In this document: positions 779-39,928 of the stretch, in pieces | Position numbering within the stretch: position 1 is the stretch's first letter | Layout: each line of letters begins with the position of its first letter | DNA from: Paeniglutamicibacter psychrophenolicus | Lineage (GTDB): Bacteria > Actinomycetota > Actinomycetes > Actinomycetales > Micrococcaceae | Assembly (NCBI RefSeq): GCF_017876575.1 | Contig: NZ_JAGIOE010000001.1 | Coordinates: 4,754,443-4,818,442, forward strand | DNA: 64,000 nucleotides | Direction of reading: 5' to 3' | Position numbers and translations under genes: made by a program | Notes under the pieces: model-generated | What the model saw: only the letters and a program-made list of their open reading frames with translations | Told to the model about the DNA's origin: nothing | Databases searched by the model: none

Positions 779-1606
779 TTAGCCCTTGAGGGTGTAGTAC
801 CCGTAGAGCGGGTTGCGGGTCACGTCGTGAAGGATCGTGTCGACGGTCGGGTTCTGTGCACCGATCATCTTGCCGCCACCGAGGTAGATGCCGACGTGGC
901 CGCCACCGTTCTGGAACACCAGGTCGCCCGGCTTCGGGCTGGAGGTGCGAACGAACTGGCCCGAGCCACGGATGGCCGAGGTGCCGCGGGCGATGTTGAT
1001 GCCGTGCTGTGCGTAGACGTACTTGACGAAGCCGGAGCAATCCCAGCCCGACGGGGTGCTGCCGCCCCATACGTAGGGAACGCCCACGTACTTGGCAGCG
1101 GTTGCCGCGATGCCAGAGAGGTTGGCGGTGTTGACCGAGTCGCTTTTGACCTTGGGTGCCGAGGCGGTGGAGTCTGTGGTGCCGCGGTTCGAGCGGGTTA
1201 CCGGCGCAAAGGCGTCGGCATTGCTGGAACGCGTCGAGGAAGTGGTGGAGCGCGGGGTGACCTCGTTGGCCACGGCGATCACGACGGGAGCCGGAGCCGG
1301 CTTGGAGGTGAACGCTGCGCGCTCGATGTTCAGGTCCTTGGCACGTTCGGTCGAGACCGAGACGGCCTTGACGGCTACGCGCTCTGCGGAAAGGCCCTCA
1401 ACGGGGACGGCGCTTGCTTCGCGGGATACGTTGCCCTGGGCTGCGGGAACGCCCAAGGTCAAAACGAGACCTGATGCGGCTGCAATGACTGCGGCCTGGC
1501 GGCCAACCGACCCAGCGTTCGAGGCTACGGCCTTCGAGATGGATTCTAGCGGGTTGGTCCGAACCGGGGTCGCGCGGTGGCGGCCCAATGCTTGACGTGT
1601 AGTCAC
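779..1606 (-). CDS. NlpC/P60 peptidoglycan endopeptidase
   Basis: The 275-residue secreted cell-wall hydrolase is expected to cut peptide stems of peptidoglycan (gamma-D-Glu to diamino acid bond in this family). A hydrophobic signal segment lies at about residues 38-56, then a low-complexity Ser/Thr/Ala linker to about 160. The C-terminal NlpC/P60 domain carries the nucleophile Cys190 in DCSGF and His237 in GHVGIYLG. The start is GTG at 1606, with AGGAGAGG upstream. The gene is preceded by a c-di-AMP riboswitch, so expression probably falls when c-di-AMP is high. A second hydrolase gene with its own riboswitch follows upstream, as expected of a wall-remodelling set. Confidence 0.92.
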   Translation of the reverse strand: MTTRQALGRHRATPVRTNPLESISKAVASNAGSVGRQAAVIAAASGLVLTLGVPAAQGNVSREASAVPVEGLSAERVAVKAVSVSTERAKDLNIERAAFTSKPAPAPVVIAVANEVTPRSTTSSTRSSNADAFAPVTRSNRGTTDSTASAPKVKSDSVNTANLSGIAATAAKYVGVPYVWGGSTPSGWDCSGFVKYVYAQHGINIARGTSAIRGSGQFVRTSSPKPGDLVFQNGGGHVGIYLGGGKMIGAQNPTVDTILHDVTRNPLYGYYTLKG

Positions 1607-1626
1607 GTAGTAATGCCTCTCCTGAT

Positions 1627-1790
1627 GCCTGCGAGGTGAGCTGTCGGGTTCGAGTGGGAGTCACTCGGCAATCCGGCCGCCAGGCCGAACTACTTAACCC
1701 CAAGGCTTCCTGGTGTGGAAACCGAAAGTGGGTCCCCCGCCACTGCCAAACGAGTTTTTGAACGGACACCGTGGGCTGGCAGTGCTCGGC
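1627..1790 (-). promoter_or_regulatory. ydaO/yuaA (c-di-AMP) riboswitch of the NlpC/P60 gene
   Basis: Read on the minus strand, the leader holds the conserved ydaO landmarks in order: a long hairpin whose arms are at 1741-1748 and 1777-1784, a GCGGGGGACCCA segment, CTTGGGGTTAAG, then near the 3' end CGAACCCGACAGCTCACC followed by CGCAGGC. The end lies 20 bases before the GTG start. Members of this RNA class bind c-di-AMP and often precede cell-wall hydrolases in Actinobacteria. Exact edges are approximate because I could not fold the RNA. Confidence 0.88.
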
Positions 1791-1893
1791 ACTTCCCACG
1801 GCGGTGATCAGGGTTGGTCCCTGAGCACTTACTTAGAATATATGAAGCGAATCCAAAAGTCACGTTCCGGTCACGGAACGGTGACAATTGTCG

Positions 1894-2901
1894 TTATAAC
1901 CAGCCTTCGGGGTTTACCCACTTGCCGTTGACGATGACCTCGAGGTGCAGGTGGGGGCCGGTTGAGTTGCCCGTGCTGCCACTGAGCGAGACAATTTCTC
2001 CACGCTTGACCTTTTGCCCCACGGTGACCTTCAAGGACGAGTTGTGGTTGTAGCTGGTGTGCAAGCCGTTCCCGTGGTCGATCTCCACGCGGAAGCCGGA
2101 GTGGCCCGCCCAGGCTGCCTGCACGACGGTGCCGGCGGCGGCGGCCTTGATCGGCGTACCCATGGGAACTGCGTAGTCCAGTCCGTTGTGGTTCATGTAG
2201 CCGGGGCCGGTCGGGTTCTTGCGGTGGCCGAAGCGCGAAGTCAGTCGAATGCTGTCCACCGGCTGGGCAAGTACACCGCTCGTGGCGATCTTGGTGACAT
2301 CCCCGCCTGCGGCGGTCATGACCGTTGCCAGCTTGTCTTCCTTGGTGAATTCGCTGGTCAGCGAGGCACGCTCGATCTTGACCTCGTCACCGGTCGGTGC
2401 CTGGACATCAACCACGACCGACTGGGCGACGCGCTGGGCGTCGGCGACGGCGCTCTCGGGCTCCTGCCCGGGAGATGCGGCGGCGAAGGCCAGGCCGGAA
2501 ACGGCGGCAACCGCGGCGATCTTGTGCGTGAACCCCAGGCGGGTGCGCTGCGGCCGGGGAGCGAACTTGATGACATTGTCGAGCTCGTCGGCTTCGGCCG
2601 GGGCGACCATCGGGGCCACGGGTGCGGCCAGGGCCACGGGGATCTCGGTGGCTGCAATGGCTGCCGCGTCCGGGGACGCGCCGTAGCGCAGGCCCGCATC
2701 GAAGCGGCGGCCGGTGTACTGCAGGGAACCAATGGCCTCGACGGCTTCCGGAACCACGCTCAGTGCGCGGCGGCCGGGACGTCGGGAAGTGTTTTCGCCG
2801 CTCAGGGCGGTGTCTACGATCTGCTCCAATGAGCCTTCAGCAGGCAAAGCATCAACGGGTCCGGTCGCACGGCGGCGGCCGGAAGTGTGCTGCTGAGTCA
2901 A
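1894..2901 (-). CDS. M23 family metallopeptidase (LytM-type), membrane anchored
   Basis: The protein of 335 residues has an unusually long N-terminal part of about 125 residues before its only hydrophobic segment (about 127-143), then a linker and a C-terminal M23 domain from about 215. The zinc site reads NHNGLDY (His238, Asp242) and GPHLHLEV (His317, His319). M23 enzymes cut peptidoglycan cross-bridges or stem peptides outside the membrane. The start is TTG at 2901 with GAGAGG upstream; no better in-frame start is seen. It is preceded by its own c-di-AMP riboswitch. Confidence 0.9.
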   Translation of the reverse strand: MTQQHTSGRRRATGPVDALPAEGSLEQIVDTALSGENTSRRPGRRALSVVPEAVEAIGSLQYTGRRFDAGLRYGASPDAAAIAATEIPVALAAPVAPMVAPAEADELDNVIKFAPRPQRTRLGFTHKIAAVAAVSGLAFAAASPGQEPESAVADAQRVAQSVVVDVQAPTGDEVKIERASLTSEFTKEDKLATVMTAAGGDVTKIATSGVLAQPVDSIRLTSRFGHRKNPTGPGYMNHNGLDYAVPMGTPIKAAAAGTVVQAAWAGHSGFRVEIDHGNGLHTSYNHNSSLKVTVGQKVKRGEIVSLSGSTGNSTGPHLHLEVIVNGKWVNPEGWL

Positions 2902-2921
2902 ATGGTCAACCTCTCATGTAT

Positions 2922-3090
2922 CGCCTGCGAAGTTAGCTGTCGGATTCGAGTCATGAGATCAACTCGGCCGAGCCCACCTAGGCGGACTCAACTTCACCCC
3001 AAGATCCATGGCCAATGGCCGGGAACGGTTGAAATGGGTCCTCCGCCCCTACCGGGAATTCTTGCTCCTGGATCCGCCGGTAGGGTTATG
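2922..3090 (-). promoter_or_regulatory. ydaO/yuaA (c-di-AMP) riboswitch of the M23 gene
   Basis: On the minus strand the leader shows a stem with arms CTACCGG (3049-3055) and CCGGTAG (3077-3083), then GCGGAGGACCCA, CTTGGGGTGAAG, and the class signature CGAATCCGACAGCTAAC followed by TTCGCAGGCG. The same landmarks, in the same order, lie before the NlpC/P60 gene. The spacing to the TTG start is about 20 bases. Boundaries are approximate. Confidence 0.88.
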
Positions 3091-3173
3091 CGAACCGGAT
3101 CAGGACTGGATTGCCTAAGTGCAACCCAACGAGAAACCCTACCGGGGTTTATGCCAAAGTTACAATTCCGTTA

Positions 3174-3869
3174 TCAATCCATGCGGCGGACAAACACATG
3201 GGCGCTGACTTCGGTCGGAAGCTCCAGCGCACCCTCGATGCCCTCGACCCGCACCACCACGTACTCCCCGGCCCTTTCGAGGGTGACTAGGGCACCTGGG
3301 CGGATGCCTCCCTCATCGAGCTGCACCAGCAGCTCGGGTTCCACCTGGATGGTTTCGGCCAGGCGCTCGATGCGGACCGGGCCCACGTTGCCGTCCAGCA
3401 GGGCCGAATCGAGATTTTGGACACTCACGGAGATCTCGGCCAATCCTGGCCCTCCCAGCGCCTCGAGCCCCGGGATCGGGTTGCCGTACGGGGAAGCCGC
3501 CGGGTGGCCCAGCAACTTGTACAGCCGCTGCTCCACGCGCTCGCTCATCACGTGCTCCCAGCGGCAGGCCTCCTCATGGACGTACTCCCACTCCAGGCCG
3601 ATCACGTCGGCCAGCAGGCGTTCGGCCAGGCGGTGCTTGCGCATCACGCCGGTGGCGACTTCCGCACCATGCTCCGTCAGTTCGAGGTGACGGTCGGTGG
3701 TGACCACGACCAGCCCGTCGCGCTCCATGCGGGCCACCGTCTGCGAAACCGTGGGCCCCGAGTGCCCCAGGCGCTCGGCAATACGTGCGCGCAGGGCGAT
3801 GATGCCCTCCTCCTGGAGTTCCAGGATGGTACGCAGGTACATTTCGGTGGTATCGATCAGGTCTGACAC
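3174..3869 (-). CDS. ideR: Iron-dependent repressor, IdeR/DtxR family
   Basis: This 231-residue metalloregulator has the full DtxR layout: winged helix (about 1-73), dimerisation domain (74-140) and a C-terminal SH3-like domain. All ligands of both metal sites are present at the DtxR positions: Met10, Cys102, Glu105, His106 (primary) and His79, Glu83, His98 (ancillary). With Fe(II) the family represses iron uptake and siderophore genes and activates storage. It starts at GTG 3869. The siderophore genes near 60-63 kb are plausible targets, but only a weak box is seen there. Closeness to DtxR rather than MntR is judged from motifs such as HSGPTVSQTVARMERDGL. Confidence 0.93.
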   Translation of the reverse strand: MSDLIDTTEMYLRTILELQEEGIIALRARIAERLGHSGPTVSQTVARMERDGLVVVTTDRHLELTEHGAEVATGVMRKHRLAERLLADVIGLEWEYVHEEACRWEHVMSERVEQRLYKLLGHPAASPYGNPIPGLEALGGPGLAEISVSVQNLDSALLDGNVGPVRIERLAETIQVEPELLVQLDEGGIRPGALVTLERAGEYVVVRVEGIEGALELPTEVSAHVFVRRMD

Positions 3870-6771: not shown

Positions 6772-6906
6772 CGCCGCACGCCCTGCGCTTCGGGGCCCGT
6801 CTCCGGCAAGTTCCGGGTGCCTTGGCGGCGTTCGTGCTGCCAAGGACCCTTGCATGCACAACGAACACACAGGGTTCTTACAGATAGCGGTTGCAGACTG
6901 GTACCC

Positions 6907-7617
6907 ATGAATGCCAAAACCCCCGAAGCAAAGCTCCTGGTCGTCGACGACGAACCAAACATCCGCGAATTGCTTTCCACCTCCCTGCGCTTTGCAGGCT
7001 TCGAGGTGGTTGCGGCGGCGAACGGCCGCGAGGCCCTGGCTGCCGTGGAGGCAGAGACCCCTGACCTTGCGGTGCTCGATGTGATGCTCCCGGACATGGA
7101 CGGCTTCACCATCACCCGCCGCCTGCGCGCCGCGGGCAAGCACTTCCCCGTGCTGTTCCTCACCGCACGCGACGACACCGAGGACAAGGTCACCGGGCTG
7201 ACCGTCGGCGGGGACGACTACGTCACCAAGCCCTTCAGCCTCGACGAGGTCGTGGCCCGCATCCGCGCGGTGCTGCGCCGCACCCAGCCGGCCGAGGAGG
7301 ACAGCGCGGTCATCCGCGTCGATGACCTCGAGCTGGACGACGACGCGCACGAGGTCCGCCGCTCCGGCGAGGTCATCGAGCTCTCCCCCACGGAATTCAA
7401 GCTGCTGCGCTACCTGATGATGAATCCCAACCGGGTGCTGTCCAAGGCGCAGATCCTTGACCACGTCTGGGAATACGACTTCAACGGCGACGCCTCCATC
7501 GTGGAGTCATACATCTCCTACCTGCGCCGCAAGATCGACTCCAGGCCCGAGTGGCCCTCGCTGATCCAGACCAAGCGCGGTGTCGGCTACCTGATGCGAA
7601 CCGCCGACCGCCGCTAA
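6907..7617 (+). CDS. OmpR/PhoB-type response regulator
   Basis: The 236-residue protein has a receiver domain (about 8-122, phospho-acceptor Asp58 in LAVLDVMLPDMDGF, acidic pair in VVDDEPN, conserved Lys in TKPF) and a winged-helix DNA-binding domain (about 135-234, ELSPTEFKLLRYLM and SYISYLRRKID). It should be phosphorylated by the kinase encoded 22 bases downstream. In sequence it resembles the MprA/TcrA group of actinobacteria. The ATG at 6907 starts the family N-terminus. Confidence 0.93.
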   Translation: MNAKTPEAKLLVVDDEPNIRELLSTSLRFAGFEVVAAANGREALAAVEAETPDLAVLDVMLPDMDGFTITRRLRAAGKHFPVLFLTARDDTEDKVTGLTVGGDDYVTKPFSLDEVVARIRAVLRRTQPAEEDSAVIRVDDLELDDDAHEVRRSGEVIELSPTEFKLLRYLMMNPNRVLSKAQILDHVWEYDFNGDASIVESYISYLRRKIDSRPEWPSLIQTKRGVGYLMRTADRR

Positions 7618-39088: not shown

Positions 39089-39871
39089 ATGGGTCCAATA
39101 ACTCCCGACCTCGCCGATGCCATCGAATCCCTGGTCGACACCCCGATCCTGCTCATAGCCCTGGACTTCGACGGAACCTTGGCACCCTTGGTCAACCGTC
39201 CCGAGGACGCGCGTCCGTTGCCTGCCGCTTCCGAGGCCCTGGCGAAGCTGGCCGCCCTGGAGAACACCGTCACCGCGTTGATCTCCGGCCGCGACCTGGC
39301 CTCGCTGCGTGCCGTGGGCAAGCCGCCCGAGCGAACATTGTTGGTTGGCAGCCACGGCACAGAACGCTGGGCACCGGAAATCTTCGGCGCCGAGGACGAA
39401 CACATCGATCTCAGCGGCTCGCAGACCGTTGCCCTGGCCAAGGCCACCGGGATCCTGGAAGCCATCAGCGCGGCCAACCCGGGCACCACCCTTGAATACA
39501 AGCCCGCCTCGATCGTCCTGCACGTGCGGCAGGCCGCACCCGAGGTTGCCACGGCAGCCCTGCGCGCCGCCCACGAGCAGCTGGACGGAATTGAGAACCT
39601 TCAGGCCCTGGACGGCAAGGCCGTGCTGGAGGCCAGTGTGCTGGTGGGCACCAAGGGCGACGGCCTGAACTGGCTGCGCGAGGTCGCCGACGCCTCCACG
39701 GTGTTCTTTGCCGGAGACGACGTCACGGATGAGGACGCCTTTGCCGCGCTGCGCCCCGGAGACATCGGGGTAAAAATCGGGTCGGGGAAATCCAGGGCAC
39801 AATTCCGTCTTAATGGGCCCGGGGAATTGCCTGCGCTTTTGGAATCCATCCTTGATATGAGAAGCTTGTGA
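39089..39871 (+). CDS. otsB: Trehalose-6-phosphate phosphatase
   Basis: OtsB dephosphorylates trehalose-6-phosphate. The 260-residue HAD-type enzyme has nucleophile motif I ALDFDGTLAPL (Asp26, Asp28), motif II TALISGRD, motif III Lys in GKAVLEAS and motif IV AGDDVTDEDAF. The ATG at 39089 fits the family N-terminus; AAAGGAT is 14 bases upstream, which is far. The gap to otsA is 162 bases, so it may have its own promoter. Confidence 0.94.
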   Translation: MGPITPDLADAIESLVDTPILLIALDFDGTLAPLVNRPEDARPLPAASEALAKLAALENTVTALISGRDLASLRAVGKPPERTLLVGSHGTERWAPEIFGAEDEHIDLSGSQTVALAKATGILEAISAANPGTTLEYKPASIVLHVRQAAPEVATAALRAAHEQLDGIENLQALDGKAVLEASVLVGTKGDGLNWLREVADASTVFFAGDDVTDEDAFAALRPGDIGVKIGSGKSRAQFRLNGPGELPALLESILDMRSL

Positions 39872-39928
39872 TTCCATTCACTACGGACCGTCGGGCACGT
39901 ACCTGCCCGTGAAAGGATTGTTGCCCCT

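Follow-up and report, generated by a model that had tools for sequence, protein, structure and literature searches.

INTRODUCTION

Riboswitches of the ydaO type, which belong to the c-di-AMP class, are mostly found on cell-wall genes in actinobacteria (PMC9960051). The described system closest to the locus considered here is nlpC (cg2402) of C. glutamicum, whose riboswitch was tested as an OFF switch that likely acts on translation, and for which a CTCC-GGAG pseudoknot with the ribosome-binding site was suggested as a possibility (PMC9960051). The gene is also among the targets of MtrA in C. glutamicum (PMC3353115, PMC5650626, PMC13189361), and in the literature searched it is the one gene for which the combination of MtrA with a c-di-AMP riboswitch is treated (PMC9960051). 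In Streptomyces, the same aptamer class sits on several wall hydrolases per genome, seven in S. coelicolor and six in S. venezuelae (PMC10117811), and a pseudoknot is mentioned for the crystallised ydaO aptamer (RNA-Puzzles 12, PDB 4QLM; PMC5393176).

Already in print are the class of riboswitch and its link to wall hydrolases in actinobacteria, nlpC as a target, the translational mode and the suggested pseudoknot with the ribosome-binding site, and the pseudoknot itself is not new. No paper on Arthrobacter together with c-di-AMP and riboswitch was met in the literature searched. Family-wide covariation of loop and tail and a promoter box shared by the leaders were likewise not met in the literature searched, a scope that excludes key subscription papers.

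RESULTS AND DISCUSSION

The locus and its two aptamers

The window, a stretch of 64 kb from the Paeniglutamicibacter-like genome (Micrococcaceae) of a soil bacterium, carries both leaders and their genes on its (-) strand. Along that strand, a dtxR-like gene (3869-3174; NCBIfam DtxR equivalog, 301.4 against a cut-off of 290) is followed by two RF00379 leaders, the first before an M23 peptidase gene and the second before an NlpC/P60 peptidase gene, the M23 gene being transcribed before the NlpC gene. The M23 open reading frame (1894..2901; Pfam PF01551 Peptidase_M23, 108.7 bits) has a TTG start 8 nt past its Shine-Dalgarno (SD) sequence, and the NlpC frame (779..1606; Pfam PF00877 NLPC_P60, 82.7 bits) has a GTG start 9 nt past its own. 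The NlpC protein shares 97-98% identity with proteins of Arthrobacter sp. C2, Arthrobacter sp. AQ5-05 and P. psychrophenolicus.

An earlier note on this DNA had proposed, from the ydaO landmarks, two tandem c-di-AMP riboswitches in front of NlpC/P60 and M23 hydrolases, and had suggested a covariance search with RF00379. The proposal is borne out by the Pfam matches and by Rfam cmscan of the 64-kb window, in which the M23 leader matches RF00379 at 3089-2906 (63.6 bits, E 2.1e-12) and the NlpC leader at 1766-1612 (50.2 bits, E 1.1e-8), each exceeding the gathering score (38) of this c-di-AMP (ydaO/yuaA) model. The landmarks are all present in the two leaders, as GGGGTGAAG / GGGGTTAAG, CCGACAGCTAAC / CCGACAGCTCAC and CGCAGGC / CGCAGGC, and both leaders contain the conserved core (GGGGUNAAG, CGAANCCGACAGCUNAC, CGCAGGC) with helices P2, P4 and P6. 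Both are RF00379 aptamers, a known kind of riboswitch, and as such would be expected to bind c-di-AMP and to control the genes that they precede.

The host genome holds one gene with a diadenylate cyclase (DAC) domain. It also holds a third RF00379 match, 0.83 Mb away, in a similar leader 5' of a second M23 gene, which was classed by sequence comparison with the M23 domain of the window. At this second M23 locus (L002; G000:C1:3924481-3927652) no NlpC partner was seen within the 3.2 kb examined; the upstream box described below is present there too.

The edges given by Rfam misplace P1, which is partly unpaired as aligned by cmscan in both leaders. The closing helix is found in both leaders only once the 5' edge is moved upstream of the Rfam matches, since a long P1b stem separates P1 from P2. 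With this corrected P1, which is kept among relatives and is new here, and with the pseudoknot described below, the aptamer of the M23 leader extends over 2912..3093 and that of the NlpC leader over 1619..1792. In the M23 leader, the 5' strand of P1 (UCGC, 3090..3093) pairs with GCGA (2924-2921) and shows one-sided changes only, and the P1b stem-loop (3047..3085), in which CCCUACCGG (3085-3077) pairs with CCGGUAGGG (3055-3047), has both-sided changes in 5 of its 9 pairs in an alignment of 13 sequences. In the NlpC leader, the 5' strand of P1 (GUGCC, 1788..1792) lies outside the Rfam match and pairs with GGCAU (1629-1625), with one of the five pairs changing from G-C to A-U in 2 of 12 sequences; its P1b (1741..1784), formed by CACUGCCA (1784-1777) and UGGCAGUG (1748-1741), has 97.9% of cells paired and 6 of 8 pairs invariant in the same 12 sequences. 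The printed ydaO sequence of PDB 4QLM differs from the leaders studied here in having no long P1b stem (PMC5393176).

The helices were counted over the 12 NlpC and 13 M23 related leaders against shuffles that ignore the relatedness of the sequences. Standard pairs occupy 93.8% of cells in both sets, against 89.7% (NlpC) and 89.5% (M23) in the shuffles, and both-sided changes are seen in 10 pairs of the NlpC set and 12 of the M23 set, against 4.2 and 3.4 (0/500 shuffles in each case). Further pair types number 25 against 20.5 in the NlpC set (7/500); in the M23 set they number 23 against 23.0 (313/500), so that one of the five measures gives no support. Sliding the partner strand by one to three columns brings pairing down to 33-50%. 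The P1 helices vary little, with one double change in the NlpC leader and none in the M23 leader, and none of the 13 M23 sequences forms the inner P3a pair proposed for that leader. A search over all leader classes gave a P1 covariation of 3.83 for own against 3.45 for swapped strands (87 distinct cases); this difference is small, the P2 motif on which the search relied is missing at 43 of 209 sites, and the search overlooked the P1 of the window's M23 leader, which starts one base later. The assignment of P1 therefore rests on the leader alignments.

A pseudoknot over the Shine-Dalgarno sequence

In the M23 leader, the P6 loop UCUCAUG (2952..2958), identified by the covariation test below and by the alignment, is complementary to CAUGAGA (2918-2912), which overlaps the SD sequence GAGAGG (2915-2910); loop and tail could thus form a pseudoknot of 7 bp, whose tail and SD together occupy 2910..2918. 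In the NlpC leader, the P6 loop CUCC (1657..1660), invariant in 12 sequences, is complementary over 4 bp to GGAG (1622-1619), itself part of the SD sequence GGAGAGG (1616..1622). A ydaO-type leader before an NlpC/P60 gene, with a suggested CTCC-GGAG pairing at the ribosome-binding site, is also what is described for C. glutamicum nlpC, a difference being the M23 partner found here, with its longer and different pseudoknot (PMC9960051). The printed sequence of PDB 4QLM also shares the core motifs and, by our own reading, has a complement between loop and tail, CUCCUUCG with CGAAGGAG (PMC5393176).

That the 3' strand of the pseudoknot overlaps the SD, and that loop and tail covary across the family, are what the present analysis adds. 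With the longest Watson-Crick helix between a fixed loop segment and the tail as the measure (209 unique sites, 176 distinct combinations), the own helix averages 5.27 bp against 4.46 bp for swapped partners (sd 0.06; 0/300 shuffles), and the covariation is seen also within the M23, NlpC and other classes (0/300 shuffles each), the shuffles again taking no account of relatedness. At 197 of the 209 sites, the tail strand of this helix shares bases with an SD-like tetramer. Our first test, run on hairpin loops as a parser delimited them, pointed the same way for all sites together and for the M23 and other classes, and the opposite way for the NlpC class (4.21 own against 4.35 swapped, with 500 of 500 shuffles at or above the own value); it was set aside because the parser assigned loop bases to the stem, and the covariation within the NlpC class accordingly depends on the choice of the fixed segment. 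In the close-relative alignments (12/13 sequences), the pseudoknot hardly varies, and no double changes occur in it. The commonest loop/tail helix is CUCCCA/UGGGAG, of 6 bp, at 47 sites. Nine aligned NlpC leaders of the Paeniglutamicibacter group, among them that of the window, carry AGGAG instead of GGGAG, which is why their pseudoknot counts only 4 bp.

The earlier note had also supposed that the two copies may differ in ligand affinity, as their hairpin loops differ. As argued, this is not supported: the P3 and P5 stem-loops are variable among the relatives aligned for both leaders, and the difference between the P6 loops is matched by the SD region of each gene, so that it provides no evidence for different affinities. 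It points instead to a different strength of SD hiding, the isolated helices having energies of about -7.6 (M23) and -3.7 (NlpC) kcal/mol, against -8.6 kcal/mol for the 6-bp form.

Our preferred reading, to which we give a probability of about 75%, is that the leaders are two independent c-di-AMP OFF switches acting on translation, one per gene. Each gene would be transcribed from a promoter of its own, and binding of c-di-AMP would close the ydaO aptamer (P1, P2, P4, P6) together with the pseudoknot that joins the P6 loop to the 3' tail. Since the tail overlaps the SD, the ligand-bound form would hide the SD, 8-9 nt before the TTG or GTG start, and translation would drop; with falling c-di-AMP, the pseudoknot would open and both hydrolases would be made. 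With 4 bp against the 7 bp of the M23 leader, the NlpC switch would be expected to leak more or to require more ligand. In the nested minimum-energy fold of the M23 leader without its pseudoknot, part of the SD is already paired, and folding alone hence does not explain a ligand-free ON state of this leader.

It is unlikely, in our view, that the switches act on transcription instead, with c-di-AMP causing premature termination in the leader, whether intrinsic or aided by Rho. A transcriptional action is reported for class relatives, namely premature termination at Streptomyces rpfA (PMC10117811), in a mode unlike the translational one proposed here, and for B. subtilis ydaO (PMC9960051), and a terminator-like hairpin does lie within the NlpC aptamer (1744-1727). 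Yet the gene starts, 8-9 nt past the SD that ends each aptamer, leave little room for a separate expression platform, no terminator-like site was scored in the scan between the M23 aptamer and its start codon on the (-) strand, and the SD overlap is built into the aptamer, with covariation of loop and tail. The locus offers a clean natural pair, with the same ligand, the same cell, neighbouring genes and pseudoknots of 7 and 4 bp, for studying the mechanism of c-di-AMP riboswitches that lack a separate expression platform.

Predicted promoters with an MtrA-like box

Upstream of the M23 leader lies an 11-bp direct repeat, ATAAC-N6-GTAAC (3159..3174), whose upstream end shares one base with the stop codon of the dtxR-like gene, and 17 nt past it a predicted -10 element, TAGGGT (3136..3141). 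The NlpC leader is preceded by three half-sites at the same 11-bp spacing, GTCAC-N6-GTGAC-N6-GTGAC (1859..1885), and, 16 nt further on, by a predicted -10 element, TATATT (1837..1842). Separately, the 3' strand of P1b, CCGGTAGGG, recurs as CCCCGGTAGGG in the predicted -10 region of the M23 promoter (window 3126-3185, (-)), a repeat that is absent from the second M23 copy.

An (A/G)TNAC repeat at 11-bp spacing precedes 148 of 209 leaders, against 0 to 9 leaders at the other spacings from 7 to 16, with the exception of 23 at 12; the controls gave 0 of 209 in-gene stretches and a mean of 2.45 over 20 base shuffles. On both strands of the 64-kb window, the 11-bp pattern occurs five times, always within the M23 and NlpC boxes. 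The two -10 assignments draw on a family-wide enrichment of TANNNT: downstream of 141 distinct boxes, offsets of 16-19 nt account for 139 occurrences and the 32 other offsets tested for 25. This would put the downstream half-site at about -35 of the predicted promoter. A scan of the leader promoters with the sigma-70 consensus found none, which weighs against this reading of the -10. New here is that each leader appears to have its own promoter, in which an MtrA-like 11-bp repeat at -35 is combined with a -10.

The box repeat fits the MtrA consensus of C. glutamicum, (A/G)TAACAATttn(A/G)TAACAAT (PMC3353115), as well as that of Streptomyces, GtnAcC-n5-GTnAcn (PMC13189361; also PMC5650626): the MtrA sites of both consist, like the boxes here, of two (A/G)TNAC half-sites with an 11-bp period. 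In contrast with these published sites, the boxes here are known from sequence alone, at -35 of a predicted promoter. MtrA is encoded in the host genome (388.1 bits against a cut-off of 300), the model having 29 matches there, many of them partial and one above the cut-off. MtrA itself may use these boxes, or they could serve a different regulator of the OmpR type, for instance that encoded at 6904-7617 of the window; the boxes hint at a second regulator on both hydrolase genes. C. glutamicum nlpC is under MtrA and has no canonical terminator, and its switch heads a seven-gene operon, a difference from the two adjacent genes here, each with a switch and a box (PMC9960051); here, MtrA is suggested by the box.

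These predicted promoters bear on a second alternative, by which both leaders form one tandem system on a single M23-NlpC transcript, with a steeper joint response. The leaders do lie on the same strand, 1.3 kb apart, in a conserved gene order, but a coding sequence separates the aptamers, a promoter-like box and a -10 stand at each leader, and a terminator-like hairpin (1880-1863) lies between the M23 gene and the NlpC leader. Moreover, the published c-di-AMP doublets consist of two aptamer domains, mostly with an intrinsic terminator between them, and not of two genes (PMC9481103). We regard a joint system as improbable and retain two separately transcribed switches. The hairpin at 1880-1863 falls within the NlpC box; we rejected it as a simple terminator of the M23 gene, as it coincides with half-sites that recur before many leaders, and it may serve as both box and terminator.

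Distribution and possible coordination in the family

RF00379 has at least one match above the cut-off in 119 of 149 genomes of the family. Among the matches listed, we read 30 and then 100 further stretches from 85 genomes, leaving out ten listed places, and located leaders by a strict core motif, which occurs at 183 distinct places. Among these listed matches, 61 same-strand neighbours are seen at a spacing of 1051-1735 bp, in 58 of the 85 genomes read, and 58 of 59 runs start with an M23-type gene, one having the other order. The 59 runs comprise 31 of M23 then NlpC, 25 of M23 then a gene not classed (some of these second genes being NlpC-like, some cut by the end of the locus) and two triples.

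Again among the matches listed, the gene behind the leader was classed as M23 at 72 of the 183 places, as NlpC at 53 and as other at 43, and at the remaining 15 the locus ends too early for a class. From the 43 in the other class, ten proteins were searched in Pfam, with five at or above the NLPC_P60 cut-off, one at 22.1 against 23 and four without a match; two more were searched in NCBIfam, where L172 has an aggregation-promoting-factor C-terminal domain above the cut-off and L166 has sub-cut-off matches only. We therefore do not extend the hydrolase label to all genes behind a leader.

An Rfam scan of 25 related named loci gave two matches in 20, one in 2 and none in 3. The 20 loci include Paeniglutamicibacter, Glutamicibacter and Zafaria, and all 9 loci of the Paeniglutamicibacter group (L034, L036-L043) have two matches. 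In both P. terrestris and P. sulfureus, the NlpC locus is present twice, and each copy carries two leaders. Two leaders also lie side by side in Isoptericola variabilis, where the gene behind the second is related to the window's NlpC and the one behind the first resembles NlpC by eye. The riboswitch-hydrolase arrangement is an ordinary and widely conserved one.

We consider it very improbable that the aptamer of the NlpC leader is decaying or does not bind, as its lower score (50.2 against 63.6 bits) and the broken half of its Rfam P1 pairs, with two non-standard pairs and an adjoining three-base deletion in the cmscan alignment, led us to ask before rejecting it: a better P1 (GUGCC/GGCAU, one pair covarying) and P1b lie directly upstream of the Rfam match, the leader is above the gathering score in all nine Paeniglutamicibacter-group loci (45.6-52.8 bits), and much of its core is invariant in the 12-sequence alignment.

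With one DAC gene in the host, the pair present in 58 of the 85 genomes read among the matches listed, and a class known on wall hydrolases, a coordinated control of both hydrolases by an osmotic signal, as the earlier note suggested, is plausible, although the two genes look like separate transcription units. Tentatively, and at slightly less than even odds, we extend this to a two-layer regulon of the wall hydrolases in this bacterial family, in which an MtrA-type control of transcription, through an 11-bp repeat replacing the -35, would be combined with a c-di-AMP control of translation tuned gene by gene through the length of the pseudoknot. Two routes of osmotic signalling, MtrAB and c-di-AMP, may converge on one set of hydrolase genes, each at its own level; such a convergence is described for C. 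glutamicum nlpC (PMC9960051) and is suggested here across the family.

Several minor observations were made along the way. Leaders precede the four proteins without a Pfam match (L114 2687-3376, L130 3163-4299, L148 3499-4329, L024 633-1880), as well as the gene ending in the aggregation-promoting-factor C-terminal domain (L172 3318-4016). An msiK RNA (RF01747, 55 bits) lies at 39866-39924 of the window, on the (+) strand. Among the loci read, and by our own start rule, the start codon past the leader is TTG in 56 of 72 M23 genes and GTG in 36 of 52 NlpC genes. Finally, three adjacent leaders with the c-di-AMP core occur at L136 and L122 (family genomes G007 and G035), and at L136 the second and third genes have NLPC_P60 matches.
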